From Paraburkholderia caffeinilytica (lineage in GTDB: Bacteria > Pseudomonadota > Gammaproteobacteria > Burkholderiales > Burkholderiaceae), in assembly GCF_003368325.1 (NCBI RefSeq), contig NZ_CP031466.1, forward strand, positions 2,418,001-2,482,000: 64,000 nt of DNA. Direction: 5' to 3'. Both the position numbers and the translations under genes were made by a program. Numbering within the stretch: position 1 is the stretch's first letter; each line of letters begins with the position of its first letter. The notes below the pieces were generated by a model that searched no databases, was not told the origin of the DNA, and saw only the letters and a program-made list of their open reading frames with translations. Below, piece by piece: positions 42,786 through 62,150 of the stretch.

Positions 42786-43616
42786 TCAGACGGACAGCGT
42801 CTGCTGAAGGTTCAGATCGGGCGAATTGAACGCCAGATCCGTGTTCAGGTTCGGCAAATTGAACGAACCGTTGCCGGACGCCGTCTGGTCGAGGCCGCCT
42901 TGCGCGGCCCACTGGAAGTTGCCCACGCCGGAAATGCCGTCCGCACCGGACACATCGTGCGTCTCGATCTGCTTGTAGACGTCCGGATTCTGCAGCATGT
43001 ACGACGCCGCGGCGGACACATCGGACGGAGTGCCGGCCGGCGGGTTGTTGGCGAGCTGGTAGAGCTGGTCCGGATCGAGCGACGAGATGCCGTTCTGGCT
43101 CATGTAGCTCGACAGCGCGCCGGCCGCGCTTTGCGTGTCCATCATCGCGCCTTGGGTAGTGGTCGAATTCATCGTATCGGTCGTGCTCGGCGACGGCTCG
43201 CTATCGAGCCCGCCTTGCGCGGCCCACTCGAAGTTGCCCACGCCGGAAATGCCGTCCGCACCGGACACGTCGTGCGTCTCGATCTGCTTGTAGACATCCG
43301 GATTCTGCAACATGTACGCCGCTGCCGACGACACGTCGGGCGGCGTGCCCGCCGGCGGATTGTTGGCCAGCTGATAGAGCTGATTCGGATCGAGCGACTT
43401 GATGCCGTTCTGGTTCATGTAGCTGGCGAGCGTGCCCGACGCGTTCTGCGCCATCGCATTCTGTCCCACCGACGAGGAACTCTGCTGCAGCGCCTGGTTG
43501 ATCATCGCATCGACTTGCTGCTCCAACTGCTGGATGGACTGGTCTTCCGAAGAGAACGAAGAGTCGAAGCTGGGTGTGGCAAGACTGGAGACGGTGTCGT
43601 TGGCGATAGCGGTCAT
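42786..43616 (-). CDS. HrpF/NolX-type repeat protein, likely type III secreted
   Basis: 276 residues from the ATG at 43616 with a strong AGAGGAC site; an upstream in-frame start at 43655 has none. Two near-identical repeats cover about 61-138 and 165-243. Each contains LxSYMxQNGIxSLDPxQLYQ, NNPPAGTPxDVS, YMLQNPDVYKQIETHDVSGADGISGVGNFxWAAQGG. This is the pattern of the N-terminal repeats of HrpF (Xanthomonas), NolX (rhizobia) and PopF (Ralstonia), T3SS translocon proteins, from my memory of those families. The long C-terminal hydrophobic part of HrpF is absent: the protein is only repeats, Ser/Gln/Asn-rich, acidic, without Cys. A perfect hrpII box lies 119 bases upstream. Confidence 0.72.
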   Translation of the reverse strand: MTAIANDTVSSLATPSFDSSFSSEDQSIQQLEQQVDAMINQALQQSSSSVGQNAMAQNASGTLASYMNQNGIKSLDPNQLYQLANNPPAGTPPDVSSAAAYMLQNPDVYKQIETHDVSGADGISGVGNFEWAAQGGLDSEPSPSTTDTMNSTTTQGAMMDTQSAAGALSSYMSQNGISSLDPDQLYQLANNPPAGTPSDVSAAASYMLQNPDVYKQIETHDVSGADGISGVGNFQWAAQGGLDQTASGNGSFNLPNLNTDLAFNSPDLNLQQTLSV

Positions 43617-43734
43617 GGAGTCCTCTGCAAGGAAAGATAGACCGCCATCGGTCAAGCGAGTGCGAAACGCAACACTGCGGCGGTCCGGAGTCGTCTAATG
43701 CTAATTGGGCCGACCAGGCCGGTTTCGGTCCACG

Positions 43735-43758
43735 CGAAAAGCGGGCTGAAAATGCGAA
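43735..43758 (-). promoter_or_regulatory. hrpII/PIP-type box upstream of the HrpF/NolX-repeat gene
   Basis: Read on the minus strand it is TTCG-N16-TTCG (CGAA at 43735-43738 and 43755-43758 on the plus strand), the exact site bound by HrpB of Ralstonia. On the same strand, 31 bases after the box, a TAGCAT element fits the YANNNT -10 motif at the spacing known for PIP-box promoters. The gene's ATG follows 119 bases after the box. Confidence 0.72.
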
Positions 43759-43830: not shown

Positions 43831-44241
43831 TCACTGGACCTGTGCGGCGCCGCGTGCGGCCTGTCCCTCGCAGTACGCCAGATATTTATCGTAGGCCTGC
43901 TGCGGCGGCGTTTTGGCGTACTGCCCGTACAGACGGTCGACAAAGGTGGTCAGTTCCGCCTGCGCGTACAACTGCCGTTCAATCGGCATCGCCGCCGCCA
44001 CGCGCTGCGCCTTGCGCAACTCGTCTTCTTTGCTGACGCCCGCATCGCGATCCTGCGCGATCAGCTTCGCGTTGTTCGCCCGCGTCGTGCAGACCTGTGT
44101 CATCGCCGACGAAGCCTGTGCATGCGCGGACAGCGGGCTTAGCGCCGCAGCCGATGCGACCACCAGCACGGTCACGGCCATGCCCCGTGCGAATGGCAGA
44201 AAGGGGGCGCGTAGTGAGTCGCTTCGGGTTACGACGATCAT
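43831..44241 (-). CDS. Small exported hypothetical protein, two-cysteine type
   Basis: 136 residues from the ATG at 44241, which overlaps the stop of the JmjC-domain gene (ATGA). A signal peptide with a long n-region is visible (cleavage likely after LSAHAQA). The mature part is helical with one Cys near the start (TQVCTTRAN) and one near the end (LAYCEGQ), plus VDRLYGQYAKTPPQQAYDKY. It resembles the small protein at 29839-30168 in plan. It is the third gene of the methyltransferase/JmjC operon and so probably under the same hrpII box. The function is unknown. Confidence 0.65.
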   Translation of the reverse strand: MIVVTRSDSLRAPFLPFARGMAVTVLVVASAAALSPLSAHAQASSAMTQVCTTRANNAKLIAQDRDAGVSKEDELRKAQRVAAAMPIERQLYAQAELTTFVDRLYGQYAKTPPQQAYDKYLAYCEGQAARGAAQVQ

Positions 44242-45422
44242 GCGGTCCTCGATGTAGTCGATGTGCTCGATGCGTTCGATGCGTTCGATGTGTTCGATGT
44301 TGAAAGCGTGCCGTCGAGCAGCATCGCAGCGGATTCGTCGTCGGCAAAACGGCTGATCGACAGCACATGGTCCAGCGCCCAGACGCAGTGAAACCAGCCG
44401 GTTGGAATCACCAGCAGATCGCCCGGTTCGAGCATGAGGTCCACGCCAGGCGCTCCGGCAAAGCGCGGAAAGCGTGTCAGGTCGGGAGCCGCTGCGTCGA
44501 CGCGGCAGGGACGATAGGTGTTGAATGCATCGAGCGCGTAGACGGCGCCTTCCTGAGCGGGCGCATAGAGCCGCACGCGCTTGCGGCCATGAATCTGCGC
44601 GAGAAACGAATTCGCCATGTCGCAGTGCAAACGCGTGACCAGCGAGGCGGCGCTCGCCCGCCCGAACCAGAGTTGCCCGGCGCCGAACATGCGCGGCGGC
44701 AGCATCGGCAGAGAGAAACGCGCTTCCCATGCTGGCGGTAAGAGGCAGCCTTCCGTGTAGTTCGCGGCGCCGGCGGCGGGAGCATGATCGGCGGAGAACC
44801 CGTCGATGAAGTCAGCGACGGTTTGCGGCAGACCGCTCGACGGATCCGCGCGCAGCACCGTCGCGCCCTCTTGCATGCGCCAATCGTCGAGTGTCCAGTC
44901 GACTTCGGGCCAGTTCAGCATGCCGCGCAACACCAGTGGCACGGAGGCATCGAGCGTGTCCGCGAGTGCCGCGTGCAGGTACTTGCCGTCGCAGCCGCCG
45001 GCCTGCAGCGCCGGTACCGTCGCCAGCGCTTCGGGTGCGCGCCGCCGGGCTCGCTCCAAGGCCATGCGCGCCACCGCCGAAGGCCGCTTGAGCAGTTGCA
45101 GCCAGTAAGCGGCGAGCCGCTCGGCGCCGTCGATTCGCACGCCGCCGAGCGTCATTGCCGCCGCACTGCGCGGATCGAAGCCGGTGGGGTCGTCGAGCAT
45201 CGCGCTCAACAAAGCGCGGCTCAGCGTGATGCGAGCCGCGGCGCGGTGCATGCCGTCGAGCGGAATCGGCATCGACTCGATCCGTGGACCGAACGTGAAA
45301 CGGCGGCTGGCATCCGTGCAATCGCTGACGATCAGATCCACGGCGCTCACGTGCGGCGGCGCCACGTAATGTTCGCCGAGCCGCGCCTCCAGAAGCGCGA
45401 TGAGTTCGGCATGCGCAATCAT
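44238..45422 (-). CDS. JmjC/cupin_8-domain Fe(II)/2-oxoglutarate oxygenase-like protein
   Basis: 394 residues from the ATG at 45422 (GGTGAG site), two bases after the methyltransferase stop. The C-terminal two-thirds are a JmjC/cupin_8 domain: the iron ligands are His266 and Asp268 (TRLHCDMANSFLAQIHGRKRVRLYAP) and His345 (LLVIPTGWFHCVW). The N-terminal 130 residues (LSRALLSAMLDDPTGFDPRSAAAMTLGGVRIDG) look like an SCP2-type lipid-binding domain, which is an inference. The last 20 residues are a Ser/Asn/Thr tail made by a 9-bp DNA repeat. JmjC enzymes hydroxylate proteins or small molecules; here the partners are a TylF-type methyltransferase and a small exported protein. Confidence 0.8.
   Translation of the reverse strand: MIAHAELIALLEARLGEHYVAPPHVSAVDLIVSDCTDASRRFTFGPRIESMPIPLDGMHRAAARITLSRALLSAMLDDPTGFDPRSAAAMTLGGVRIDGAERLAAYWLQLLKRPSAVARMALERARRRAPEALATVPALQAGGCDGKYLHAALADTLDASVPLVLRGMLNWPEVDWTLDDWRMQEGATVLRADPSSGLPQTVADFIDGFSADHAPAAGAANYTEGCLLPPAWEARFSLPMLPPRMFGAGQLWFGRASAASLVTRLHCDMANSFLAQIHGRKRVRLYAPAQEGAVYALDAFNTYRPCRVDAAAPDLTRFPRFAGAPGVDLMLEPGDLLVIPTGWFHCVWALDHVLSISRFADDESAAMLLDGTLSTSNTSNASNASSTSTTSRTA
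44250..44303. repeat. 9-bp tandem repeat in the 3' end of the JmjC gene
   Basis: Six units of the form CGATGCGTT with small variations (plus-strand sense). Being a multiple of three they keep frame; on the coding strand they encode the repeated Asn/Ala/Ser tail of the JmjC protein. The last unit ends nine bases before the start of the neighbouring signal-peptide gene. Confidence 0.8.
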
Positions 45423-45424
45423 GC

Positions 45425-46375
45425 TCACCATGGCTTGCGCCAGTAAACCGCCTGTGCGTTGATGCGCGTCAGCGGCGCGTCGATCCGATGCGCGGCGCGG
45501 TATTCGTCGACGGCGCGCGCGCAGCCGGTCGGCAGGCCATAGTCGTCGACGATCACGAAGCCACCCGGCGACAAACGCGGATACAGGGCGTCGAGTGCGA
45601 CACGGGTGGACTCGTACCAGTCGCCATCGAGCCGCATCAACGCGAGGCGCGCGATCGGCGCTTCCGGCAAGGTATCGGCGAACCAGCCCGGCAGGAAACG
45701 CACCCGGCGATCGAGCAGGCCCGCGCGCGCGAAGGCCTCGCGCACGGCCGCCAGATCGCTGCGCAGCAGGCCGACCGCGCGCATCAGGTGATGCCAGATG
45801 GCATCGCGCAGATCCGTGGCGGGGTCTGGCGCGGGCAGGCCCGCGAACGAATCGGCCACCCATACGCTGCGGCCCAGGTCGCCGAACGCGGTCAGCGCGG
45901 CGCGCATCAGAATCGTCACACCGCCGCGCCATACGCCGGTTTCGATGAAGTCGCCCGGCACGCGCTCGTCGATCACGACACGCGCCAACTCGACGACGTT
46001 ATCGAGCAGCACGTCGTGGCACATCGTCAGACGGCGCGACTCGTGGTGCATGTGGTTGAGCGCGTCCGCCATGCGCGCAGGTTCGATGCCGGCGGCCTCG
46101 GCCGCCGGACGGCGCAGCGGCGCGAGCCATTGGGCGAATACACGGTCCGCATCGGCGAGCCGTTCGGCGCAATCGTCGGCGGTGATCGGCGCGGTTCGCG
46201 CCGTGGCGGATTGCGTGGGGCGGTCAATATCGGCCGCGCCGCCAATGTAGCGGCGGATCATCGCCAGATAGGCATCGGCGCGCGCGTCATCGGCGGGCGG
46301 CATGAAGGGCTGCGGCTCGACGTCGGACAAAGCAGCGAAAGGAAAACTCGGAGGATTCGGAAGATTCAATTCCAT
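45425..46375 (-). CDS. TylF/MycF-type class I methyltransferase
   Basis: 316 residues. SAM site DFIETGVWRGGVTILMRA, then WVADSFAGLPAPDP, and the metal-binding stretch LALMRLDGDWYESTRVALDALYPRLSPGGFVIVDDYG typical of the TylF macrocin O-methyltransferase group. These Mg-dependent enzymes methylate sugar hydroxyls of macrolides and related natural products. The N-terminal 100 residues are helical and not conserved in the core fold. The ribosome site is weak. First gene of a three-gene operon; a perfect hrpII box lies 149 bases upstream on the coding strand. Confidence 0.82.
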   Translation of the reverse strand: MELNLPNPPSFPFAALSDVEPQPFMPPADDARADAYLAMIRRYIGGAADIDRPTQSATARTAPITADDCAERLADADRVFAQWLAPLRRPAAEAAGIEPARMADALNHMHHESRRLTMCHDVLLDNVVELARVVIDERVPGDFIETGVWRGGVTILMRAALTAFGDLGRSVWVADSFAGLPAPDPATDLRDAIWHHLMRAVGLLRSDLAAVREAFARAGLLDRRVRFLPGWFADTLPEAPIARLALMRLDGDWYESTRVALDALYPRLSPGGFVIVDDYGLPTGCARAVDEYRAAHRIDAPLTRINAQAVYWRKPW

Positions 46376-46523
46376 CGCCGGTTCGGGTGGGCGCTCGGGC
46401 CGCTATTGGGCTCGGGCGTTTATCGGAAGATATGTGTGCGGGAAGACCGTCACGCACAAGGCCGAGCGCGGCGGCCAGCCCGAATTAGTATCGGCCGACG
46501 CGGGACCCAGTTCGGCTGAATCG

Positions 46524-46547
46524 CGAACGGATGCATGCTCATGCGAA
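46524..46547 (-). promoter_or_regulatory. hrpII/PIP-type box upstream of the methyltransferase/JmjC operon
   Basis: On the minus strand it reads TTCG-N16-TTCG (CGAA at 46524-46527 and 46544-46547 on the plus strand). An AT-rich GATACTAATT lies about 31 bases beyond it in the right place for a -10 region. No other gene on this strand is closer than the methyltransferase. Confidence 0.65.
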
Positions 46548-46629
46548 CCACCGGGGTTTGCTGAGTTGACGCGTAGGTGCCTCGACGCCTTCGCGTCCTC
46601 GCGCCCTCGTGCGTTTGCGCCTTCATGCC

Positions 46630-46773
46630 TTCGCCCCTTCGCCCCTTCGCCCCTTCGCCCCTTCGCCCCTTCGCCCCTTCGCCCCTTCGCCCCTTCGCTC
46701 CTTCGCTCCTTCGCTCCTTCGCTCCTTCGCTCCTTCGCTCCTTCCCTCCTTCCCCCCTTCGCCCCTTCGCCCC
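46630..46773. repeat. Octanucleotide tandem repeat, 18 units
   Basis: Eighteen consecutive 8-bp units: eight of TTCGCCCC, six of TTCGCTCC, two variants (TTCCCTCC, TTCCCCCC), then two TTCGCCCC. Because eight is not a multiple of three and no unit holds a stop, all frames stay open across it; frames through it are artefacts of composition. It lies in the 524-bp gap between the methyltransferase start (46375) and the lipoprotein start (46900). The rest of this gap holds the hrpII box and nothing else I can name. Confidence 0.95.
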
Positions 46774-46899
46774 TTCGCAGACCAGCATATGTGCCCGGTT
46801 CACTGCGTGCGGTTTTCAATGCACTCGTTCGTGTCGCGCCCTACAGCACCGTGCCGGATCAGGTGTGATGGCAACATCGCCCGCCTCCCCCTTCTCCCC

Positions 46900-48813: not shown

Positions 48814-48837
48814 TTCGCATCCCCGGCCCTCACTTCG
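48814..48837 (+). promoter_or_regulatory. hrpII/PIP-type box upstream of the large putative effector
   Basis: Perfect TTCG (48814-48817), 16 bases, TTCG (48834-48837). It is 90 bases before the GTG start at 48928. The -10 region at the expected spacing is not a good YANNNT match, so this promoter is a little less convincing than the one at 43735. Confidence 0.65.
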
Positions 48838-48927
48838 GACTTCGCTCACCGCAATGTGACGTGGCGATGAAAATTCGTCATCGTCGGCAATCAGCCGATG
48901 CGACCGTCCTCACATGGGAGACCGCTC

Positions 48928-51900
48928 GTGCCATTCGGGATTCGCAACCCTTTCTCACGCGGCGCGCCGCCAGTTCAACAACAGCAGCCCGCGGCTGCGC
49001 AGGCCAATCAGCGGCAGACCAACACGCCACTGCCCGAGACGAGAGTAGTGGGTGGCCCGCTCGACAAGCTGCGCGCATTGCGCAACCATCTGCCGGGCGC
49101 ACCGGTGCAGACACCGCTTGCACCAGGGCAGACGCAGAGTGACCCGATGCCGCAAGGCTCGCCCCTCAACGACCTGACCGGCAGCGGCGCCAACCGCGTC
49201 TACACGCCGTTCCATGCGCGGACCACCGTGCGCGCGTCGCGGCCCGCGCCGGAGGTCCTGCCGAGCGCCGAGCAGATGCGCACGCCGAAGGCCAACGCGA
49301 GCACGCCGCTTGGCGTCAACTCGCACAACAAGACCAACGTGAAGACCGCGGTCGGCAAAAACGAGCGCGCCGCGTCGCAAGCGAGCACCGAACTGCGCGA
49401 CACGGCCGCGGCCGACGCGCATCTCGCCGCAAGCTTTCCGGCCGAGCCGGGCACCCAGTTCGCAACCCAGCGCGACGCGCTGCTGGCCAACATCCGCAAC
49501 GCGATTCCGCAAGGTCAGCGCGGCGACCCGCCGCTCGCGAAGGCGCGCTATCTCGGTCACGCGCTCGCCGAAGCGACGGGCGGCAACGTGCAACGCGCGA
49601 ACGACGTGCTCGGCGTGCTGCAAGGCACGATCCAGAATCCCACCCCGCAGCAGGCGCGCGATGCTTTCGCGACGCGCTGCTCGATGGCGCGCTCGCGCGC
49701 CGCGTTCCGCGCGCTGCGCGACGTCGAGGCGGCGCCGCCGATGGGCGGCAATCACCAGGCGCCCACCGACCGCGACCGCAAGGTTCACGCGGAAGCCGAC
49801 TGGCAAACGTGGCGCGCCGCTGGCACGCTGTTGTCGGCATGGCCGGCCGGCATGGAAAAACCCGCCTCGCTGCGCGAACTCGGCGAGTCGGCCAACGCCA
49901 TGCTGCCCGCCGCCGAACGCGATACCCACACCCAGGTCGCGCAAAGCCAGCAGCAACCCGCGATCAGCCAGGCGCTGACGCCGCATACGCAGACCGCCAA
50001 GGCCATGCTGTGCGGCAACGCGTTGCTCGACGATCCGCGCGCGCAGCCGGAAACGCGTTTTCGTTCGGCGTACCTGGCGCATCGCAACGGGATCGCCGAA
50101 GCCGATGTCGGCCAGGTGCAAAACCGCATGTACTCCGTGGTCAAGCACGCGCAACGCAACGCGACGTCGGCGCGCACCGGTTCGTGGATGAACCGCACCG
50201 CGCAGCGTTTTCGCAGCGGCGTCAAGCAAAGCTTCGGCCACGAGAAGGATCCGATCTCGGCGCTCGGCATGGGCACCGCCGGCGGTCTGATGGATCATCC
50301 GGACAAGGACTTCAGCACGTTGCAATCCATCGACACGGTGGTCGACGCGCTGAATACGCAGGTGGTGAACGCGCCGCACCGGCGGCGCGGCGAAGCGCCG
50401 GACAACGCCACCATGAACGCCGCCGTGCGCGCCGCCGCGCTGCGCAACTGGAAGGCGAGCATCGGCACCAAGGGCTGGCTGCGCGACGACACGAAATTCG
50501 GCCGCCTGCAACGCAATCAGATTGCCCGCGACGTTGCGGGCGCGCTGAACGTCGACAAGGAAACGGTGCGCAACAGCCCGGCGTTCCGCGATCTGCCGAA
50601 GATGAACGCCGAGACGCTGCGCACCTGGGCAACCGGCGCGGGCGCGAATATGAACGCGCAGATCGGCGCGACCGGCCGCACGCTCGGCGAAAATCTCGAC
50701 CGCATGCAGGCGATCCGGCAGGATCCGGTGGCGACGCCGGCAACGCCGCAAGGCAATATCGATTCGCTGTGCCATCTGGTCGAAAACGTGCCGAAAACGT
50801 GGAGCGTGCAGATGTCGAGCGGCGGCGTCTACGGGCTCGACGCGAACATCTCGGAGAACATCGCGACCGCGCTCGGGCTCGTCGGCGCGCCGAGCGCGTC
50901 GGTGGCGCCGGACGTGCGCTATCTGAAAGGCCGTCATGCGGTGCTCGAAGTCGGCTCCACCTCGCATCACGGCGAAATGTTCATCGGCACCGACAACCGC
51001 AAGTCCGCGCATCTCGGCGTCGGCGGCTTCATCGGTTGGTCGCTCGCGGGCGGCAAGGCAATGGCGAGCGGCTACGGCTCTCTGATCGGCGGCCGCGACA
51101 CCAGCAATCCGCGCGGCGTGGTGATCCGCACGCCGTTCGACCAGACCGGCAACAACGACCCCGAGGCCTGGCGCGGCAAGATGACCGACGTGGTGCGCAC
51201 GCTCGGCGGCTCCGGTCCCGGCGGACAGCTGCCGCGCACGAAGGACGAAATGTGGAACGGCATGGCGGACAAGTTCTTTGCCGATCCGGACGTGTCGATC
51301 GGCTGGGTCGACAACAAGAGCCGTTCGAACTACGGCTCGTTTGCGGTGACGGGCGGCGCGCGTTACGTAACCCCGGCCAACGTCAAGTTCGGGCCGCTCG
51401 TGACGGGCGAGGCCGTCCTCAGTTCGAGCAAGGCTCACTCGACCGATCAGAGCGGCGCGCGCAACGTCGACAAATCGAGCAGCGGCCATCGGTTCGCCAT
51501 CAACGGCAGCGCCACGCTGGTCTCAAGCGCGCCTCCCGTGCCGATCGGCAACGCCGGGCCGTTCAACTCGCTGTCGTTTTCGAGCGCGCCGCTGGTCGGC
51601 TTCGGCACGACCCTGATGCAGACCGGCACCGGCTCGACGCTGCGGCTCTACGAAGAGAGCGGCGACATCGTGCCCGAGCGGACCTATCGCGACACCGAGT
51701 TCACCAGCGTCGGCAAATACCTGCAATACATCGACAGCCGCAACGATGAATGGGCGCATTCGATGAACGGCGACCAGGCGGCATTGAACACGTATCAGAC
51801 CAAGGTCAAGCTCAACGCGACGCGCGGCAATCAGTTCTATGGCGAACGGCAGCGCATCGTGCCGCAAGCCGCCGCCGAAATCAACGCGTATCGCGGCACG

Positions 51901-52143
51901 CTGCGCATGTTCGAGCAAGGCGGACGCACGCCGACCCAGGACGAGCAGAACGAGATGCTGCGGATTCGCGGCGAGATCGCACGCCTGCTCGACTCGCCGA
52001 CAAGCTGGACGAATCACGTGCTGTACAGCTACGAGTCGAATTCGGCGTCGCGCACGTCGGGGCTCTCGTATGTCGGCACGGCGCAGGCGGTCAAGCAGGT
52101 CAGCGCGCAGCGGGAGCTCAGCTCCTTGCCGGCGCAGATTTGA
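48928..52143 (+). CDS. Large putative type III effector, AWR (RipA)-like
   Basis: 1071 residues. I chose the GTG at 48928, which has GGGAGA seven bases upstream; the ATG at 48898 has none. The N-terminus is Gln/Pro/Ala-rich and without membrane segments (about 1-130), as common in T3SS secretion signals. The middle is helical, Ala/Arg-rich; from about 600 on the protein is Gly/Ser-rich with strand-like repeats (SSGGVYGLDANISENIATALG, HLGVGGFIGWSLAGGKAMASGYGSLIGG, GSFAVTGGARYVTPANVKFGPL). It contains an AWR triad in NNDPEAWRGKM; size, composition and triad recall the AWR family of Ralstonia, with relatives in Burkholderia. The family name is from memory. A hrpII box stands upstream. Convergent with the pyruvyl transferase gene at an 11-base gap. 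Confidence 0.7.
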   Translation: MPFGIRNPFSRGAPPVQQQQPAAAQANQRQTNTPLPETRVVGGPLDKLRALRNHLPGAPVQTPLAPGQTQSDPMPQGSPLNDLTGSGANRVYTPFHARTTVRASRPAPEVLPSAEQMRTPKANASTPLGVNSHNKTNVKTAVGKNERAASQASTELRDTAAADAHLAASFPAEPGTQFATQRDALLANIRNAIPQGQRGDPPLAKARYLGHALAEATGGNVQRANDVLGVLQGTIQNPTPQQARDAFATRCSMARSRAAFRALRDVEAAPPMGGNHQAPTDRDRKVHAEADWQTWRAAGTLLSAWPAGMEKPASLRELGESANAMLPAAERDTHTQVAQSQQQPAISQALTPHTQTAKAMLCGNALLDDPRAQPETRFRSAYLAHRNGIAEADVGQVQNRMYSVVKHAQRNATSARTGSWMNRTAQRFRSGVKQSFGHEKDPISALGMGTAGGLMDHPDKDFSTLQSIDTVVDALNTQVVNAPHRRRGEAPDNATMNAAVRAAALRNWKASIGTKGWLRDDTKFGRLQRNQIARDVAGALNVDKETVRNSPAFRDLPKMNAETLRTWATGAGANMNAQIGATGRTLGENLDRMQAIRQDPVATPATPQGNIDSLCHLVENVPKTWSVQMSSGGVYGLDANISENIATALGLVGAPSASVAPDVRYLKGRHAVLEVGSTSHHGEMFIGTDNRKSAHLGVGGFIGWSLAGGKAMASGYGSLIGGRDTSNPRGVVIRTPFDQTGNNDPEAWRGKMTDVVRTLGGSGPGGQLPRTKDEMWNGMADKFFADPDVSIGWVDNKSRSNYGSFAVTGGARYVTPANVKFGPLVTGEAVLSSSKAHSTDQSGARNVDKSSSGHRFAINGSATLVSSAPPVPIGNAGPFNSLSFSSAPLVGFGTTLMQTGTGSTLRLYEESGDIVPERTYRDTEFTSVGKYLQYIDSRNDEWAHSMNGDQAALNTYQTKVKLNATRGNQFYGERQRIVPQAAAEINAYRGTLRMFEQGGRTPTQDEQNEMLRIRGEIARLLDSPTSWTNHVLYSYESNSASRTSGLSYVGTAQAVKQVSAQRELSSLPAQI

Positions 52144-52154
52144 GCTGAGCGCGC

Positions 52155-53639
52155 CTAGCCTTCGAGCACGGCGCGCACCCGCTCGCCCATCGCGTCGAAA
52201 CGGGCGCGCTGCATGCGTGCGTAATCGCCGTAGGCGGCAATCAACGCGCCGCGCACGCCGCCGTCCTGCAGCGACGCGATGGCCGCGAGCGCGGCCTGTG
52301 CGCCGTCGTCGTCATCGCATGCGGCGCGCCATGGCCCGCAACCCATCTCGCTCAACAGACGCTCGATGCGCGCGTCCATCGAGAGCCCGAACACCGGCAC
52401 GCCATGCGAGATCGCGAGCACGGCTGCGTGATAACGCGTCGTCACCACACATGCCGCATGCGCGACCGTGGCGGCCACTTCGTCGAGCGTATGCGGGCCG
52501 CGCGCGACGATGTCGATCGGGAATGGCACACGGGCCGCCAGATCGGCGCACGCGCCGCGATCGAGTTGCTCCATGCCCACCAGCACCGGCATGTAACCCT
52601 GCTCCCTCAAACCGACAGCGATCTGCGCGAAGCGATCCAGATAGGCGCGATAGGCCTCGGCGCGCGCCGCGTCCCAACTGTGAAAATGCAACGGTCCATA
52701 GCGCAGCGGCGATGCCTCGCCGCGCGCATCGAGTTCACGCGCCCGCGCGGCGTCGGCACGCACCGGCCACCAGAACGGATTGTTCGGACAGAGCGCGGCA
52801 CGTCGTGAGCCGGGCGCCGCGTTGTGCGAGTCAGCGCGCGCCCGATAAGTCCACGCGGTATCGGCGCCCGTTTGCGCGCTCACGCCGAGCGAAGCGAGCT
52901 GCGCACGCGCCGCGTCGTTGCGGCAAATGACTTCGCCGGCTTGCGCATTGCGTTCGACAAAGCGCGTGAGCGCCGCGCTCATCGTGCCGCTATCGACACC
53001 GTAAGCCATCGCCGGCCGCCGGTGCGCATGGGCGAGCGCAATCCCGCCGATCAGCACGCCCGCCAACGAATCGGAAAACTTCGACGTGTAGGTCGACCCT
53101 TCCACGTTCAGCACGAGATCGGCATCGCGCACGGCGGCGTCGAGCGCATCGGGCAGATAAGGCAGTGAGGGGGTGAGCCGCGGCGTGCCGGCAAGCAGCG
53201 GATGATCGAAGCAGTCGCCGAGCGCAAACAGCGTGATGCGAGGCTCGCGCGGTGCGAGCAGACGGCGCAGCTGGGCGATCGTTTCGATGGTGCGCAAATC
53301 GGCGCCGGTGTTGCCGGCGCCGCTGTAGCCGAGCAGCAGCACGCGCGGCTCGGCGCGATCTGCTTCGTGGTTTGCGGCACGATTCGAGTCACGTTTCAGG
53401 TCGCCATTAGCGCCGGGATTCGAGTCACGTTTCAAGTCACCATTCGCGGCAAGATTCAAGTCGCCATTCGCGTCTCTTCGCGCGCCGGGACCGCTGCGGC
53501 CGGCCACACGCCGTGCCGCGTCGATGCGTTGCTGCATGTCGTCGAGAAAGACCTCGTCCGGCGCGGGTGCGCCTGCATAGCGGTTCAACGCGGCAAGCGA
53601 ACGCTGCAACGGGCTGTCGACAATGTCCCAATCCATCAT
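52155..53639 (-). CDS. Polysaccharide pyruvyl transferase-family protein
   Basis: 494 residues from the ATG at 53639, overlapping the stop of the preceding gene (ATGA). The PPT domain starts near residue 98 with VLLLGYSGAGNTGADLRTIETI, followed by DLVLNVEGSTYTSKFSD, ARAQLASLGVSAQTGADTAWTY, and the C-terminal VTTRYHAAVLAISHGVPVFGLSMD that ends all CsaB/WcaK-type proteins. Such enzymes add a ketal pyruvate from PEP to a sugar in surface polysaccharides. The N-terminal extension (residues 50-95) is a repetitive hydrophilic linker (two NGDLKRDSN units) made by a 36-bp DNA repeat. With a MenD-like enzyme and a Rieske oxygenase before it, a small-molecule substrate is as likely as a polysaccharide. 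Confidence 0.82.
   Translation of the reverse strand: MMDWDIVDSPLQRSLAALNRYAGAPAPDEVFLDDMQQRIDAARRVAGRSGPGARRDANGDLNLAANGDLKRDSNPGANGDLKRDSNRAANHEADRAEPRVLLLGYSGAGNTGADLRTIETIAQLRRLLAPREPRITLFALGDCFDHPLLAGTPRLTPSLPYLPDALDAAVRDADLVLNVEGSTYTSKFSDSLAGVLIGGIALAHAHRRPAMAYGVDSGTMSAALTRFVERNAQAGEVICRNDAARAQLASLGVSAQTGADTAWTYRARADSHNAAPGSRRAALCPNNPFWWPVRADAARARELDARGEASPLRYGPLHFHSWDAARAEAYRAYLDRFAQIAVGLREQGYMPVLVGMEQLDRGACADLAARVPFPIDIVARGPHTLDEVAATVAHAACVVTTRYHAAVLAISHGVPVFGLSMDARIERLLSEMGCGPWRAACDDDDGAQAALAAIASLQDGGVRGALIAAYGDYARMQRARFDAMGERVRAVLEG
53381..53472. repeat. 36-bp in-frame tandem repeat in the pyruvyl transferase gene
   Basis: Units starting GATTCGAGTCACGTTTCA at 53381 and 53417 and a degenerate, shortened unit at 53453. 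The period is 36 bp, twelve codons, so copy-number change would lengthen or shorten the protein linker without frameshift. Confidence 0.85.
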
Positions 53640-55789
53640 GCCGCTCCCAAAGCTTGCGCGAGGTGTTGCATTTGCAGCGCGCCGGAATACGGCTCGACCG
53701 CCACCTCGACGATCGTCACGCCGGCGTGATCGCGCGCCTCGGCGAGCGCCTGGTCCAGTGCGTCTCGCCCCTCGACACGCCGATGCGCGAGCCCGAACGC
53801 CTGCGCCAGTGCGCCGAACTCCATCTTGCAGGGATTGCGGATCGTGCGCCGATAGGCCGGTGCATGCGCGATCGGCAAAAAGTCGAAGATCGCACCGCCG
53901 CCGTTGTCGACCACGCAGATGCAGGCCGGCGTACTCACACGTTGCGCGCTCGCCAGCGAGGACAGATCGTGGATCAACGCCTGATCGCCGAGCAGCAGCA
54001 GACCCGTATCGCGGCGCGCGAGCGCTTCGCCGATGAACGTCGCCATCGTGCCGTCGATGCCGCTCACGCCGCGATTCACGTAGATGTCCTGGCGCGCGGC
54101 GCGCACGTCGTAGCCGATATCGGCGTGACGCATCGACATGGAATTGCCGAGATGGACGAAGGCGAAACCGGGCGCCGCCAGCACGCGATGAACCGCCGAC
54201 ACTTCGCCCCAGGCGAGCGATGCGACACACGCGCGCCGCTCGCGTGCACCGTAGCCGGCGACGCTTGCCCAGCGGTCCCGCCAGGAAAAGGCGACGGGTG
54301 AACGTGTTTTGGCGGTCGCGTTGGTGTGTCCTTCATCGCCGGCAGTCGGATGCGCTTCGCCGCGAGCGGTGGAATTTGCTTCGCTGCCGGCTGCGGCGAG
54401 CGTTTTTGCGGGCGCCTCGCCATCCACCATTCCGCACAGCGCCTCAGCCAGTTCGCTCAACGTATCGGCGGAAGGCGCAACCAGCACGTCGCGCGGATCC
54501 AGCGCCGGGTGCAGATAGTCATGCGCCACGCGGCACGGCGCGATCTTGATCGTGGGCACGTCGGCATGCGTTTCGAGGTAGGCATGCAGCACGGGCATGA
54601 CCGGTGCCAGGCCGAAGCGCACGATCAGTTCCGAGCGCGCCGCCGCCATCCGCGCCGCGCCGCCGAGCACGTCGAATGCATTGACGATCAATGCACCCGC
54701 CGCGCCACGTGCGGCGGCTTGCGGCGCCAGCGCGGACGGCCCCGAGCGCAGTCCGCTGCCCGCATCGGCGAGTACCGGGAAGCCGCTCGCCGCGGCCAGC
54801 GCGAAGATCGCTTCGGATGACACGCCCGGTTCGGGGCCGACCACGATCAACCCGTCGATGCCGCCACTGAGCGGCCGGCTGCCGCGCTTCGCCAGCACGC
54901 GCGCCATGACGCGTCCGACGATATGCGCGGGAGACGCTTCAAATGCGGGCAGCCCGGCGCGTGGAGACACGGCGCGAAAGTGCGAAGCCCGCGTTGCCCG
55001 TGCGGTGTGGATGGCATCGCGCGGCGCCGTCGCTGCCCGTCTAGCGCCGATAGCATCACTTTGCGCCATCGTTGCTCGCGCCGCGCCAGCGGCATCATGC
55101 GAAGCCGTCGCCGCTCGTGCCGCGCGGACCGTCTCGAACGAAACCGGCTGCGTCTCGACCGCATCGTAGACACCCGCCAGCGGGACGTTCAGGTGCACCG
55201 GACCGCGCGTCGGCCGCTTTGACGATGGATGCGCATCGGCGCGCGACAAGCTGCCATCGAGATCGGGCACGCCGTCGAACATCGCAGCAAGCGCTGCTGC
55301 GAGCTCGTCGCGGACCTGCTCCAGGGCCTGCACGGAATCGTCAGGATCGGCCAGGTCCGCCTGCGCGCGCACGAACGCGCGGGTCGCGCCGAGATGATCC
55401 GCCATCTGTCCAAAACCGGTGCCGCGCAACACACGCGGCCGGTCGCACGTCAGCACGACGAGCGGCACATCGGATGCGTCCGCTTCGGTCAGCGCCGGCA
55501 AGACATTCGCCACCGCCGAACCGGAAGTCGTGACGATCGCAACCGGTTCGCCGCTCGCTTTCGCGATCCCGAGCGCCACGAATGCGCCGCTGCGCTCGTC
55601 GGTGCTGACCATCTCGACAGTAATGCGCGGATGCGCGTCGAACGCGAGGCACATGGCGCTCGCGCGTCCGCCAGGACAGAGCACGGCATGACGCACGCCG
55701 GCCATACTCAACATCTCGACGATGAATTCCACCCATATCGCGTTGAGCGATTCACCGCTTGTCGCGGGAACATCAGGAACGGCGCTCAT
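53636..55789 (-). CDS. MenD-family thiamine diphosphate enzyme, non-menaquinone
   Basis: 717 residues from the ATG at 55789, which overlaps the Rieske stop (TGATG). MenD features: LCPGGRASAMCLAF, catalytic Glu in STDERSGAFVALGIAKASGEPVAIVTTSGSAVANVLPALTEADASDVPLVVLTCDRP, NRGVSGIDGTMATFIGEAL, and the ThDP/Mg motif GDQALIHDLSSLAS followed by VDNGGGAIFDFLP. MenD is near 560 residues; here 13-residue Ala/Arg repeats (about 222-270) and an Ala/Thr-rich insert (about 500-545) enlarge it. MenD joins a decarboxylated 2-oxoglutarate unit to isochorismate; Burkholderia uses ubiquinone, not menaquinone, so a different acceptor is likely. It lies between the oxygenase and pyruvyl transferase genes. Confidence 0.84.
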   Translation of the reverse strand: MSAVPDVPATSGESLNAIWVEFIVEMLSMAGVRHAVLCPGGRASAMCLAFDAHPRITVEMVSTDERSGAFVALGIAKASGEPVAIVTTSGSAVANVLPALTEADASDVPLVVLTCDRPRVLRGTGFGQMADHLGATRAFVRAQADLADPDDSVQALEQVRDELAAALAAMFDGVPDLDGSLSRADAHPSSKRPTRGPVHLNVPLAGVYDAVETQPVSFETVRAARAATASHDAAGAARATMAQSDAIGARRAATAPRDAIHTARATRASHFRAVSPRAGLPAFEASPAHIVGRVMARVLAKRGSRPLSGGIDGLIVVGPEPGVSSEAIFALAAASGFPVLADAGSGLRSGPSALAPQAAARGAAGALIVNAFDVLGGAARMAAARSELIVRFGLAPVMPVLHAYLETHADVPTIKIAPCRVAHDYLHPALDPRDVLVAPSADTLSELAEALCGMVDGEAPAKTLAAAGSEANSTARGEAHPTAGDEGHTNATAKTRSPVAFSWRDRWASVAGYGARERRACVASLAWGEVSAVHRVLAAPGFAFVHLGNSMSMRHADIGYDVRAARQDIYVNRGVSGIDGTMATFIGEALARRDTGLLLLGDQALIHDLSSLASAQRVSTPACICVVDNGGGAIFDFLPIAHAPAYRRTIRNPCKMEFGALAQAFGLAHRRVEGRDALDQALAEARDHAGVTIVEVAVEPYSGALQMQHLAQALGAA
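54980..55126. repeat. 39-bp degenerate repeat encoding a 13-residue motif in the MenD-like gene
   Basis: Four successive 13-residue units of the form ARAxxAxxDAIGA cover residues 222-270. DNA units are diverged, suggesting an older expansion than the 36-bp repeat in the next gene. In the MenD fold this falls after the N-terminal ThDP domain, in a linker. Confidence 0.6.
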
Positions 55790-56895
55790 CAAGCCACCGC
55801 TTGCGACGTGTCCGCCACCGGCGTAATCGCAATCGTGCGCGCCTGTGGCGGCACTGCCCCCACTGCCCCCTGCTCCGCCGCAATCAACCGCTCCATGACA
55901 CGTCGTGCGCGAATCGCGCCGGCATCGATCGGCAGCAGCGCGGGCTGCATCGCCCAGAATTCGTTGTCGCCGAGATTCTTCTGCTGTGCTTCGAGCATCG
56001 GCAGATCCTCGCACTCGAACGGCTTCATCAACCCTTCGACGGCATAGCGCACCAGCCCGCGCGCCGCGTCACCCATCTCCTTCGGCAAGCCGAACGCGAA
56101 GAAGTAATGCGTCGTGCGCTCGGTCTCGGGCGTCAGCCAATGCGCGGAAGGCGCGATCAGCCCCGCTTCGCGCGGCATGCCCGCCGCGGTCACGCCGACC
56201 ACGATCGAAAGCAATCCAGGCGGCGTCCAGCGCACGTCCATCCAGCGATCCACCCGCGTGCCGGGCGGAATCCCGAAGCCTTGCGCGACGAACGGCTGCA
56301 GCGCTTCGTCGTAAGCGCTGCGGCGAACCCAGACAATATCGCCGAGACTGCCCGACTGCACGTCGCCGCGCGCAATCGCCTCGCTGCCCAGCGTATCGGG
56401 ATGAAGAAACTGGAAGTGGCTCAGATCGAGCAGATTGTCGGCGCTCAGCTGATAGTGCGCGCGCGTATGCAGGTACCCGTCGTGCGTGACGTTGGCTGCG
56501 GGGTCGACGAACGGAAACGACGGCAGCAAGGCCGCGTCGGCGCGCGCCGGGTCGCCCGGCCAGAACCAGATAGCGCCATATCGTTCGAGCGAAGGGTACG
56601 CACGCACCTTCGCACCGGAAGGCACCCTGCCGTCGCCGTGCGGATTGTGCACGCACTGCCCGCTCGCGCTGAAACGCAGACCGTGATACGGACATTCGAG
56701 CACGCCGTCGACGATCCGGCCTTGCGACAGCGGCGCGAAACGATGCGCGCAGCGATCGTCGAGCGCGATCGCACGCTGTTCCGCGTCGCGATACAGCACC
56801 ACGGGCCGCCCAAGCAGCGTGCGCGAAAACGGCACGTCGGCGCGGACCTCGTGGGCGAAAGCGGCGACATACCACGCGTTTAACAGAAAGGACAT
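55789..56895 (-). CDS. Rieske-type aromatic ring or O-demethylating oxygenase (VanA-like)
   Basis: 368 residues from the ATG at 56895; an upstream in-frame start is less likely because MSFLLNAWYVAAFAHEV is the usual beginning. Rieske 2Fe-2S ligands Cys49, His51, Cys68 and His71 (RCAHRFAPLSQGRIVDGVLECPYHG). Mononuclear iron site NLLDLSHFQFLH with bridging Asp157, His160 and His165. Vanillate demethylase-like length and order. It would need an electron-donating reductase, which is not adjacent. First gene of a three-gene operon with the MenD-like enzyme and pyruvyl transferase; all three overlap, so stoichiometric expression is likely. Confidence 0.9.
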   Translation of the reverse strand: MSFLLNAWYVAAFAHEVRADVPFSRTLLGRPVVLYRDAEQRAIALDDRCAHRFAPLSQGRIVDGVLECPYHGLRFSASGQCVHNPHGDGRVPSGAKVRAYPSLERYGAIWFWPGDPARADAALLPSFPFVDPAANVTHDGYLHTRAHYQLSADNLLDLSHFQFLHPDTLGSEAIARGDVQSGSLGDIVWVRRSAYDEALQPFVAQGFGIPPGTRVDRWMDVRWTPPGLLSIVVGVTAAGMPREAGLIAPSAHWLTPETERTTHYFFAFGLPKEMGDAARGLVRYAVEGLMKPFECEDLPMLEAQQKNLGDNEFWAMQPALLPIDAGAIRARRVMERLIAAEQGAVGAVPPQARTIAITPVADTSQAVA

Positions 56896-57390
56896 GAGCG
56901 CACTCGCAATGGAATCGGCACGAAAAAAGACACGGTGCGGCGCCGCATTGGCGGCCACCTCATGCGAGTGTAAATAGCCGGTCATTCCACAGATTCAACA
57001 AAGCTCATGGCAATGCGAAGCCGCACTTCTTAAAACGCGCATTCCAGATTCTCAACAAAAATAAATATGGCTTGCAACGCTGAAAGGTATTGCGAACCTT
57101 GCTTCGCGTGCGATTCCCGGCGATGCGGGTCTCTTTTACCCGTCGCGGCACAGACGACGGTAATTGATGCCGAAATCGTGTTTAGAAGTGCATCTCCCGG
57201 CTAATAGCCGCGATCTGTCTGCTTATTGAGCGGATCGAAACGATGCGAAACAAATTCATCATCTTTCATGTAATTTCAATTCATCCCACGAAGAAACAAT
57301 TCGTTACAGCCCTGATATTTTAAGGGCCGTAATTTGCGGGACGTGCAATGTGGTTTGAGAAGCAACCTTAGGCTTCAGTCCCGGGAGGGC
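56896..57390. other. 495-bp intergenic region between the Rieske operon and the HrpG-like gene
   Basis: No gene seen. The region is clearly less GC-rich than its surroundings (for example 57045-57075 and 57240-57330). It must contain the divergent promoters. On the Rieske side only an imperfect hrpII-like match exists (CGAA at 57016, CGCG twenty bases later), so I do not call a box. Confidence 0.4.
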
Positions 57391-58449
57391 ATGTTGAAAT
57401 TCGCCGTGATGACTACCAGCAGCAGTCTGTTCAATCTGATTTGCCAATGCTTTCGCGACGAGACGATCGAATGCTGCCGCTTCCTCGATGACGTCGCGCT
57501 ATCGCGGGCGATCTATCGGGAGGACTATCACGCCATCCTTGTCGACGCGGCAACGGGAATCGATGCGACGCGCGCGGTGTTCGCGCGCCGCGCCTGCTAT
57601 GGCGACCGCCGCGCACCGTTGATCGTGGTCGGCGCATTTGCCGATCGCGACAGCATCGAGCGGGCCTTCGAGGTCGGCGCCGACGACGTGGTGCTGTCGC
57701 CCATCGATCAGGGCGAGCTCGAGGTACGCACCTACCAGGCGCTGCGCCGCTTCCAGTCGCCGCCGCCGTTGCAATCCGAGGATCGTGCCGAACTCGGTCC
57801 TTATCGGCTGGACCGGCGGACCGGCACGGTACTGGTGGACGAACGCGAAATCCGCCTGACGGTGCGCGAATTCGCGATTGCGTGGCTGCTGTTCTCACGC
57901 GCCGGCGAGTATGTGAGCCGCCGGCAGATTGCCGGTGCGATCTGGAGCAGCACGGAAGATATCGTGGGACGCACGCTCGAACAGCACATCTACAAACTGC
58001 GCAAGAAGCTGGGACTGAGCGGTGCGTCGGGCGTCCAGCTACGCACGATGTATGCGCATGGATATCGCGTCGAGTTGTGCGACGGCAAGGCGGATGCCGA
58101 CGCGATCATGCCGGGGATCGCCCAGGTCGGGCAGGCCGCCGATGCGATCGCGGCGATCACTGAAGTGGTCGATATCGCGCGCCACGAAGCAAACAGAGAG
58201 CGCATCGGGAAAACCGCGCGCCCTTCCCGGGCGCTCGACGTCCACGTAAAAGACAGTGAAGCCGCTCGCAGCGCGCAACCGTGGGGGCAGTATGCAGCCA
58301 TGTGGCACGGCGGCGCCGCGCACATCGTGCACCCGGTAGCGGACTTCACCGTGCGCGGCGCTGAATCGCCGGGCAGCGGTTCTTCGACAGCATTGACGTC
58401 GTTCTCGATTCCCGCGGCGCTGCTGGGGAGCAACGCACGGCGCCGCTAA
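57391..58449 (+). CDS. Orphan OmpR-family regulator, HrpG-like
   Basis: 352 residues from the ATG at 57391; GGGAGG is very close to it, and the ATG at 57409 is an alternative. Receiver-like domain 1-125: an Asp (Asp52 in AILVDAATGI) is at the phospho-acceptor place, but the N-terminal acidic pair is missing and the conserved Lys is replaced by Ser (VVLSPIDQ). The winged helix covers about 135-232 (LGPYRLDRRTGTVLVDEREIRLTVREFAIAWLLFSRAGEYVSRRQIAGAIWSS; ending RTMYAHGYRVEL). The C-terminal 115 residues have no match I recognise. HrpG in Ralstonia and Xanthomonas is an OmpR protein that switches on hrpB or hrpX; location beside the hrp genes supports the same role here. Confidence 0.75.
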   Translation: MLKFAVMTTSSSLFNLICQCFRDETIECCRFLDDVALSRAIYREDYHAILVDAATGIDATRAVFARRACYGDRRAPLIVVGAFADRDSIERAFEVGADDVVLSPIDQGELEVRTYQALRRFQSPPPLQSEDRAELGPYRLDRRTGTVLVDEREIRLTVREFAIAWLLFSRAGEYVSRRQIAGAIWSSTEDIVGRTLEQHIYKLRKKLGLSGASGVQLRTMYAHGYRVELCDGKADADAIMPGIAQVGQAADAIAAITEVVDIARHEANRERIGKTARPSRALDVHVKDSEAARSAQPWGQYAAMWHGGAAHIVHPVADFTVRGAESPGSGSSTALTSFSIPAALLGSNARRR

Positions 58450-58577: not shown

Positions 58578-60362
58578 TTACAGATCCAGCACGCGCGGCG
58601 ACAACAGGAAGACGCGTTCCATATGCGAGCGGGAGTCGTTGTTATTGCGGAACAGCGCGCCAATCAGTGGAATCTTCGACAAACCCGGCACGCCGGTCAC
58701 GCCGTTCGAGTTGTTATCCACGCTATAGCCCGCGATCAACAGGCTCTCGCCCTGGCCGACAAAGGCCTGCGTATTGATCTCGCTGCTGGTGATCACCGGA
58801 ATGTTGTCGACCTGCTGCCCGGTGAGCTGGCCGTCTTCGATGTGCACTTCGAGCTTGATGCGCATCTGCCCGTCTTCCTGCACGACCATCGGCAGCACGC
58901 GCAGCGAGACGCCGGTCGACACGCTGTACAGATCCGCCGACGTATAACCGGACACGCGCACGAAGAACTTGGTCTTGTTGTCCATCACGGCCTCGACGTT
59001 GTCGAGCGTCGCGACCTTTGGCGACGCGTCGATCTTCGCCTTCGAGGTGGACTGCATCGCATTGACGCGCGCCATCAGATAGCGGCCCGCGTCGCCGAGC
59101 ACGGCGGTGATCGAGGCACCCACCGGCGTGGCGGAGACCACCGTGGTGCCGTCGGCAAGCGTCGTGGTGCCGAAGTTCGGGTTGATCTGGCCGTTCGCGT
59201 AGCTGTTCTGCTGATACGTTCCGGTGCCGGTCTGGAAGTCGAGATGACTGTTGTGCGCGCGCCAGTCCACGCCGATCTGCGCGAGCACGTCGTCGTCGAT
59301 TTCGATGATGTGCGCTTCGATTTCGATCAGCTTGGGCCGCGTGTCGAGCTGATCGATCAGCGACGCGTACTGGTCGATGCGCTGCGGCGTATCGCGGATC
59401 AGCACCGAGTTGGTGGTCGGATCGGGCTGCATGATCGGCAAGGTCAGATCGCCACCGCTCGGCTGGCTCGCCTGCGAGGCGCCTGGCGCGTTGCCGTAGC
59501 CGACATTGCCCGTGCTGCCGTAATTCGACGGCTGCGCGTTGCCGACCAGGCCGCCGAGCGCCGAGCCTTGCCCATCGGCCATATTGGGCGGCAACGGCGG
59601 GTTCAGGACCGGCGCGCCGCCGTTGTTGCCGCCGCTCACGTCGGTCATCGGCGGCACGCGCTGCATGTTCGGCGACACCGAGGTCTGCGACTGTCCGCCG
59701 CCCTTCTCCTGCTTCGCGTGATACATGTTCGACAGCACGGTGGCCACACCCGGCACCGTGATCGTGTTGCCGTCGATCTGCACCTTGTGGTCCGCGGCCC
59801 ATGCGTGCTTCAGCTTGAACACGCGAATCACCGAGCCGCTGCGGCGGCTCGCGTTCTCGTCGAGGCGTCTGGCGATCTCGCTCACCATCTGGACATATTG
59901 CGGCGGACCGTTGACGATCGCCGTGCCCGCGCTTTCGTCGTATACGACCGGGAAGCGCGCGTCGTCGACACTCATCGTATGCAGGGCCGCGCGCAGATCG
60001 GCGGCGGATGCGTGATCGAGCTTGATCACCTGATGCGTGACGTCGTTGGCGCTGCTGATCGACAGCACGCTGCCGTCGTAGAACCAGACAAAGCCGAAGG
60101 TCGACGCGAGCGTGTCGAGAAAGCGCTGCGGCGACATGTCGAAGCGGCCCGTCACCGCGCCCTGAACATTGCCCGCAATCGACGTGGCCACGCCCTGGCT
60201 CGCGGTGAAATCGCGCAGCACGTCTTTCAGATCCTTGCCTTCCACGGCGATGTGCACCGTGGTGCCGCGCCATCGCACGGGAGCCGCGCCGGCAGGTTGC
60301 AGCGCGCTCAACGTCAGGGACGCCGCGAGCCACGCGGCGCAGAACAGCGTCTTCGATTTCAT
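58578..60362 (-). CDS. hrcC: Type III secretion outer-membrane secretin HrcC (SctC)
   Basis: 594 residues from the ATG at 60362. Signal peptide ending near LQPAGAA. N0/N1/N3 periplasmic domains (HIAVEGKDLKDVLRDFTASQGVATSIAGNVQGAVTGRF; DLRAALHTMSVDDARFPVVYDESAGTAIVNGPPQYVQMVSEIARRLD), a Gly/Asn-rich linker (about 245-325), and the secretin core (KLIEIEAHIIEIDDDVLAQIGVDWRA; VPGLSKIPLIGALFRNNNDSRSHMERVFLLSPRVLDL). It forms the outer ring of the injectisome. In Ralstonia hrcC follows hrpB directly, as here. The ribosome site is weak. Confidence 0.94.
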   Translation of the reverse strand: MKSKTLFCAAWLAASLTLSALQPAGAAPVRWRGTTVHIAVEGKDLKDVLRDFTASQGVATSIAGNVQGAVTGRFDMSPQRFLDTLASTFGFVWFYDGSVLSISSANDVTHQVIKLDHASAADLRAALHTMSVDDARFPVVYDESAGTAIVNGPPQYVQMVSEIARRLDENASRRSGSVIRVFKLKHAWAADHKVQIDGNTITVPGVATVLSNMYHAKQEKGGGQSQTSVSPNMQRVPPMTDVSGGNNGGAPVLNPPLPPNMADGQGSALGGLVGNAQPSNYGSTGNVGYGNAPGASQASQPSGGDLTLPIMQPDPTTNSVLIRDTPQRIDQYASLIDQLDTRPKLIEIEAHIIEIDDDVLAQIGVDWRAHNSHLDFQTGTGTYQQNSYANGQINPNFGTTTLADGTTVVSATPVGASITAVLGDAGRYLMARVNAMQSTSKAKIDASPKVATLDNVEAVMDNKTKFFVRVSGYTSADLYSVSTGVSLRVLPMVVQEDGQMRIKLEVHIEDGQLTGQQVDNIPVITSSEINTQAFVGQGESLLIAGYSVDNNSNGVTGVPGLSKIPLIGALFRNNNDSRSHMERVFLLSPRVLDL

Positions 60363-60416
60363 GGAGTCGACTGTGTGAGGGTGATGGAAAAAACCGCGAA
60401 TAAGGTAACGCGCAAC

Positions 60417-60476
60417 CACAGCAACAACCGTAGCGGCGACCGCAGCAACAAGCGCAGCAACAAGCGCAGCAACCTC
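60417..60476. repeat. 12-bp tandem repeat between hrpB and hrcC
   Basis: Five 12-bp units; two exact (CGCAGCAACAAG) and three diverged. It fills half of the 124-bp spacer between the hrpB stop and the hrcC start, where a promoter or the leader of hrcC would be. Confidence 0.8.
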
Positions 60477-61962: not shown

Positions 61963-62150
61963 GGACGACTCCTCTGAGTGCGGGAACGCGTCGCAAGCGG
62001 CAAGCGCGATGCGTCGAGTGGAGTCAATGTAACGAGGCGCATGAAACGAAGTTTCAATTAATCTGATATTTGCGGCCCATTTGAGAAGGTTTGAGATTTG
62101 CATCGGCGCGCCCGCGCAGCGGCGTTTTGCCGGACATTCTCAACATAAAC

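Follow-up and report, generated by a model that had tools for sequence, protein, structure and literature searches.

Does an enzyme operon that lies near a type III secretion system answer to the same regulator as the injection machine, and if so what do its enzymes act on? The DNA analysed, hereafter the window, is a stretch of 64,000 nucleotides from Paraburkholderia caffeinilytica (NZ_CP031466.1, 2,418,001-2,482,000), and the coordinates given are window positions. The operon occupies the minus strand. The first gene (45425-46375, ATG at 46375) encodes a TylF/NovP/MycF-type O-methyltransferase of 316 amino acids, assigned with Pfam PF05711. The second (44238-45422) encodes a JmjC/Cupin_8 oxygenase of 394 amino acids, recognised from Pfam, alignment and a PDB profile match to JMJD5. 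The third (43831-44241) specifies a small protein of 136 amino acids, of no known family, with a signal-peptide-like N-terminus that, judged by eye, gives it the look of an exported protein. Neither Pfam nor NCBIfam profiles match it at E values up to 0.1, and among its 18 homologues those with a named source are from Paraburkholderia, Burkholderia or Trinickia. The oxygenase start at 45422 is two bases past the methyltransferase stop, the alternative start at 45431 gives a 7-base overlap with the methyltransferase gene, and an ATGA overlap joins the oxygenase and third genes. The initial annotation had named the same three products and tight junctions between their genes, and the Pfam searches and inspection of the junctions bear this out.

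Pattern scanning places a perfect hrpII/PIP box, TTCGCATGAGCATGCATCCGTTCG, at 46524-46547 on the minus strand, with the TTCG-N16-TTCG arrangement that serves as the criterion of an hrpII/PIP (HrpB) promoter. It lies 149 bases ahead of the methyltransferase gene, as first noted (46524 minus 46375, with 148 nt between). The hexamer GATACT (46487-46492, minus), 31 nt past the box, resembles a -10 element of the form NANNNT; the first base differs from the published YANNNT. The PIP definition in the available text of PMC8565462 has [CT]ANNNT 30-32 nt after TTCG[CGT], so that GATACT is correctly placed and departs from the strict pattern in having G as the first base. The PIP-box survey of Burkholderia s.l. 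described in that text was scanned with the strict -10, which this promoter, with G for C/T, would escape.

How much can a single box tell us? The window holds nine perfect boxes over both strands, compared with a shuffle mean of 5.08, and seven of 100 shuffles reach nine. The genome (8.32 Mb) has 711 (365 + 346) against 348 (177 + 171) for a control pattern, approximately one per 23 kb of strand; the earlier estimate of one chance box per strand per 65 kb was too low. As sequence evidence one box by itself is weak, and the weight comes from conservation and the -10 element. The combination of box and GATACT occurs twice in the 8.3 Mb genome, and the reversed control not at all.

Searches found 101 oxygenase homologues, of which 31 were aligned; 20 loci were examined, 19 of them Burkholderiaceae, together with further loci from other genomes (L078, L081, L082, L089, L090 and L091). 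Twelve orthologous promoters were stacked on the box without gaps. All eight box bases are invariant, as are eight positions of the 16-base spacer. Of the 150 flanking columns 12 are invariant, and seven of those 12 are the CGATACT at the -10 position. The window and the two most distant members, L032 and L033, have flank identities of 0.30-0.37 in the three stretches measured, with closer pairs more alike (0.44-0.70 for the window against L024, 0.65 upstream for L032 against L033). An invariant box and CGATACT amid diverged flanks is the pattern expected of a selected promoter. On the initial annotation's own terms, its reading would fail if close relatives retained the operon but not the box; the box is present in all 12 loci of the Paraburkholderia type where the two genes adjoin, counting the window. 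Within the spacer CATGC (46533-46537) is invariant in the 12 orthologues and, shifted by one base, also occurs in this genome's boxes ahead of the hrpB2/hrcJ side and of hrpD5.

A perfect same-strand box is found no more than 300 nt from the match start at 19 of 26 loci, against 0.58 expected, an expectation that ignores the relatedness of the loci. The background derives from 67 other boxes in 899,076 strand-bases at 22 loci, equivalent to 0.022 per 300 nt. Each place was counted once, T. fusca therefore twice since it has two places. Loci L002-L005, L050, L074-L077, L079, L080 and L083-L088 repeat others and were counted once; L043 (a partial match, 28%, Myxococcales) was excluded and L006-L023, weak methyltransferase matches, were unused. 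The distant oxygenases, six or so, include L089 (37%) and L091 (27%), both retained as misses. Gene order matters: 14 of 15 methyltransferase-first loci carry the box, the exception being Robbsia, compared to five of 11 oxygenase-first loci. The seven loci lacking a perfect box are L038 (Robbsia) and the oxygenase-first L034, L035, L037, L082, L089 and L091. At L037 there is a one-mismatch box with CATACT as -10; at the other five oxygenase-first loci no box within one mismatch plus -10 was found. A strict YANNNT follows the box at L039, L040, L041, L090 and, by eye, L081, and is absent at L036 and L042.

The arrangement of these loci is informative. The T. fusca methyltransferase (L090) and oxygenase (L039) are on different contigs, with a box and YANNNT ahead of each. 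One in-frame TAG was reported in the T. fusca oxygenase match; in L039 the open frame spans 9818-11041 and extends beyond the match. In T. dinghuensis the gene pair sits between two hrpB-like genes, and the boxless Robbsia pair starts 19 nt behind the hrcT stop. The P. kururiensis-type loci L034 and L082 have no hrp gene within the stretch examined.

The candidate regulator is close by. An OmpR-type regulator gene (57334-58449, plus), HrpG-like by position, is followed by hrcC/sctC, the secretin (58578-60419, minus; TIGR02516, 557 bits, cut-off 238), an AraC-type regulator gene with HTH_18 at the C-terminus, taken as hrpB by domain and position (60487-62103, minus), and hrcT/sctT (62151-63188, minus; TIGR01401, 209 bits, cut-off 163). 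These four are some 11 to 17 kb from the operon. Past the window end are hrcN, hrcJ, hrpB2, hrcU, hrcV, hrcQ, hrcR and an hrpD5-like gene (281.5 bits, cut-off 300); we take HrpB2 and HrpD5 to be marks of an Hrp-2 type system. The next genome stretch, L092, runs in window coordinates from 61000 to approximately 80900. Of its eight boxes six have YANNNT, starting 32 or 33 nt past the box: 7655, ahead of the reading frames leading to hrpB2 and hrcJ; 7669, ahead of hrcU; 11725, just upstream of hrcQ and inside the preceding frame; 15622, ahead of hrpD5; and 18993 and 19166, ahead of stretches without gene identification. The boxes at 10480 and 17838 have no YANNNT. Judged from the DNA, the type III secretion promoters of this genome have the same architecture as the operon promoter. 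A second HrpB-like gene, 37% identical, is encoded elsewhere in the genome (L093:9363-10814; G000:C1:49362-50813).

Two other boxes flank the operon. One (43735-43758, minus; TAGCAT at the -10 position) precedes a Ser/Gln-rich reading frame at 42786-43640 (minus) that by eye resembles a harpin or translocon protein; the family search gave no significant match and 'harpin' is simply a by-eye label. The other (48814-48837, plus), with no YANNNT and only GAAAAT at the -10 position, precedes a frame of 1081 codons (48898-52143, plus), which its size and box alone make a putative type III effector. It has no Pfam, NCBIfam or PDB match, and the label 'AvrE-like' was dropped on that account. None of the six remaining boxes in the window has YANNNT, and one (35548) has NANNNT.

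Does the oxygenase travel with the regulator? Of 398 genomes searched in the family, 54 give a match to the oxygenase profile at E<=0.001, in many cases a short one. A full-length oxygenase was defined by E<=1e-60, a value chosen after seeing a gap from 7.6e-66 to 4.1e-53, and an hrpB-like gene by E<=1e-30, matches to which include paralogues. An hrpB-like gene is present in 18 of the 19 genomes with a full-length oxygenase as opposed to 96 of 398 overall (Fisher P 3e-11), and the genome in which none was found is 89% complete. The two genes are within approximately 16 kb on one contig in ten of the 19 and 33-62 kb apart in three; the remaining genomes have them widely separated or on different contigs, or have no hrpB-like gene. 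Counted otherwise, nine of the 19 have no hrpB within 20 kb or have it on another contig. Among the matches listed for 399 genomes from the order, a sample with few family members in that listing and one that missed all the relatives known from the family search, only the window's own genome reaches E<=1e-40.

These comparisons strongly support one part of the initial annotation, which proposed an HrpB-driven small-molecule operon: control by HrpB is very probable. The activator, taken as the product of the AraC-type gene between hrcC and hrcT some 14 kb from the operon, would bind the TTCG-N16-TTCG box, conserved like the -10, and start transcription approximately 100 nt ahead of the three genes. 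The other part, a small-molecule product, is plausible, and draws on the enzyme families, an SCP2-like region in relatives and the genes around them.

The methyltransferase matches TylF PF05711 with E 8.8e-75 (251.8 bits, cut-off 23). Its PDB relatives are 5i10 (1.8e-60) and 4cdz (1.4e-59), with MycF and NovP also represented, and the solved relatives are mostly named as antibiotic-pathway O-methyltransferases. The catalytic region is common to these TylF/NovP/MycF-type enzymes (5i10, 4cdz, 4x7u and 2wk1), and LDGD and DDY, which presumably bind metal, align exactly with 5i10 and 4cdz. Unlike those four, the window enzyme has a matched region starting 40-65 residues later, and its operon contains no glycosyltransferase. 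TylF-type enzymes methylate sugars; 4cdz and 5i10 act, we assume, on spinosyn rhamnose.

The oxygenase matches Cupin_8 PF13621 (6.4e-20, 72.6 bits, cut-off 27.4) and JmjC_2 PF08007 (4.4e-9, 36.4 bits, cut-off 22); the score against plain JmjC PF02373, 13.8 bits, is below the cut-off of 24. The HxD...H metal triad, His266, Asp268 and His345, is invariant in all 31 aligned sequences of the 101 found. By profile the closest solved structures are JMJD5 (1.6e-30), FIH, C2orf60 and JMJD7, which are macromolecule hydroxylases acting on protein or tRNA. The window enzyme shares with the JMJD5/FIH type the JmjC region, as a sequence profile, and the HxD...H triad. It differs in being bacterial and hrp-linked, and in an N-terminal region with an invariant QLLKRP (residues 109-114) that is SCP2-like in some relatives. 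Ahead of QLLKRP those relatives score above the gathering cut-offs of the alkyl-sulfatase C-terminal and SCP2 families; the N-terminal piece of relative P0053, for example, gives 29.4 bits with PF14864 (cut-off 27) and 24.4 with PF02036 (cut-off 21.3). At E<=0.1 five of seven N-terminal pieces match PF14864 and four of seven PF02036, the pieces having been partly chosen for prior matches; with whole proteins the counts are three and one of 31, respectively. The region in those relatives also finds one PDB chain, PSdsA, at E 0.0026. The window oxygenase itself has no SCP2-like match to Pfam profiles; from the alignment we infer that its N-terminal region is also SCP2-like.

The surroundings of the relatives add a metabolic flavour. 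Genes for P450 enzymes are near the oxygenase at L037 (same strand, with an esterase gene also nearby), L081 and L042 (both opposite strand, the latter about 6 kb off). The distant relative L089 has a luciferase-type monooxygenase and a PLP decarboxylase nearby, and DUF4915 proteins occur in L039 and L091. APS kinase genes with a box and YANNNT lie beside Trinickia oxygenases (boxes at L039:9765 and L040:7292, both minus), the L040 box being, by eye, inside the longest reading frame and ahead of the likely start. A similar box with YANNNT is beside the Trinickia oxygenase at L041:9772 (minus), the APS kinase annotation being confirmed for L039 and L040. These boxed kinases raise the question of sulfation chemistry in the hrp regulon. 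Within about 8 kb of the T. fusca methyltransferase are class-III aminotransferase, 2OG-Fe(II) oxygenase, EamA, haem-oxygenase-like, GHMP-kinase, PLP and ATP-grasp genes. None of these metabolic neighbours is found at the P. kururiensis-type loci L034 and L082. Neighbour sets vary between species and some genes are on the opposite strand; read as gene content, they favour metabolism over protein modification.

On balance we lean towards the operon tailoring a small, probably hydrophobic metabolite, the hydrophobic character being suggested by the SCP2-like region of the oxygenase relatives. Most likely the two enzymes would O-methylate and hydroxylate this compound, which would be made during operation of the injection machine. 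From the occurrence of either gene alone, the oxygenase would be the core part and the methyltransferase accessory; the third protein may, at a guess, help in export or handling of the product. Against such a scheme, the three genes include no scaffold-making enzyme (PKS, NRPS or glycosyltransferase), the methyltransferase adjoins the oxygenase in only 14 of 25 oxygenase loci, and neighbours differ by species.

The oxygenase's kinship with JMJD5, FIH, C2orf60 and JMJD7 also sits uneasily with a metabolite, and it lends support to a different, rather unlikely possibility, that the substrate is a macromolecule employed alongside type III secretion. Secreted proteins, the pilus, harpins and surface polysaccharides are candidates: the oxygenase would hydroxylate one of these, or the methyltransferase would methylate its glycan, for example hiding the modified molecule from host recognition. 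The sugar substrates of TylF-type enzymes fit this, and the boxed Ser/Gln-rich frame next door is a possible substrate; that frame was, however, not found in L028, L032, L033 and others, and the operon has no glycosyltransferase. The SCP2-like region of relatives suggests a lipid-like ligand instead, and P450, esterase, PLP and APS-kinase genes are found in the neighbourhood of relatives. Passages of PMC3879358 speculate that HrpL-regulated methylases of P. syringae modify conserved elicitors, which is in keeping with a macromolecular substrate.

The same passages provide a precedent for metabolic genes co-regulated with type III secretion: HrpL regulons hold non-effector enzymes, and the Erwinia hsvABC operon is physically linked to the secretion genes. 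The P. syringae and Erwinia systems belong to the HrpL regulon and involve other enzymes (amidinotransferase, AvrD, ApbE-like and others), and the available text has no oxygenase or cupin match by term.

In Ralstonia, HrpB reportedly induces 3-hydroxy-oxindole synthesis (Delaspre, in 2007). By title the likeness is small-molecule synthesis under HrpB, in another organism.

In the parts of the literature on HrpB/HrpL regulons and Burkholderia s.l. PIP boxes that were available the operon is not mentioned, and literature searches on JmjC together with type III secretion and hrp, and on SCP2 together with JmjC, brought up nothing on the subject. Effectors have been the main interest in mining type III regulons; here a conserved enzyme operon, controlled through a box and close to an Hrp-2 system, points to a chemical step coupled to injection. 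In this soil bacterium one DNA signal appears to turn on both the injection machine and two modifying enzymes, with the wiring kept in many relatives, so a chemical may be made or modified during protein injection into a host. For testing this, the genes, the promoter and the relatives to look at are all defined. We tentatively extend the idea: the Hrp-2 systems of Burkholderiaceae might carry a small-molecule arm, in which an SCP2-JmjC oxygenase recurs as a member of the hrp regulon, with TylF methyltransferase, APS kinase and P450 exchanged for one another as its partners. The oxygenase would make a hydrophobic signal or co-factor that acts alongside injected effectors, and its promoter would have been kept or regained where the genes moved apart.

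Could the methyltransferase, the oxygenase or both be injected effectors themselves? The available text of PMC12027289 treats the hrpII box as a main mark of effectors in Ralstonia, and boxed frames that are possible effectors flank the operon. The N-termini, with two and four Ser in the first 50 residues and acidic residues in the first 12, lack the P. syringae secretion pattern, a crude rule (the frame of 1081 codons also has only three Ser). The tight operon with a third protein of Sec-exported look argues further against this weak and improbable proposal. Weakest is a chance match, with the operon outside HrpB control: the abundance of boxes in genome and window, the relaxed -10 and the seven boxless loci would allow it, but a box and -10 invariant in 12 orthologues, boxes at 19 of 26 loci, some arranged differently, and the rarity of box plus GATACT make it very improbable, and on promoter conservation we reject it.

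Two minor features of the window deserve mention. Beside the HrpG-like gene, at 52155-56985 (minus), are genes for a Rieske oxygenase, a MenD-like TPP enzyme (TIGR00173, 249 bits, cut-off 244) and a pyruvyl-transferase-like protein. These genes are also near hrp genes in L032, L033 and L035, and in part in L036 and L042; perhaps they form a second hrp-linked metabolic operon, and no box within one mismatch plus -10 was found for them in the window, L032, L033, L035 or L042. Between the operon promoter and a divergent DUF3455 gene, at 46590-46780, is a run that by eye consists of a tandem 8-base unit of the TTCGCCCC type, in which the TTCGs are spaced by 8, not 20.
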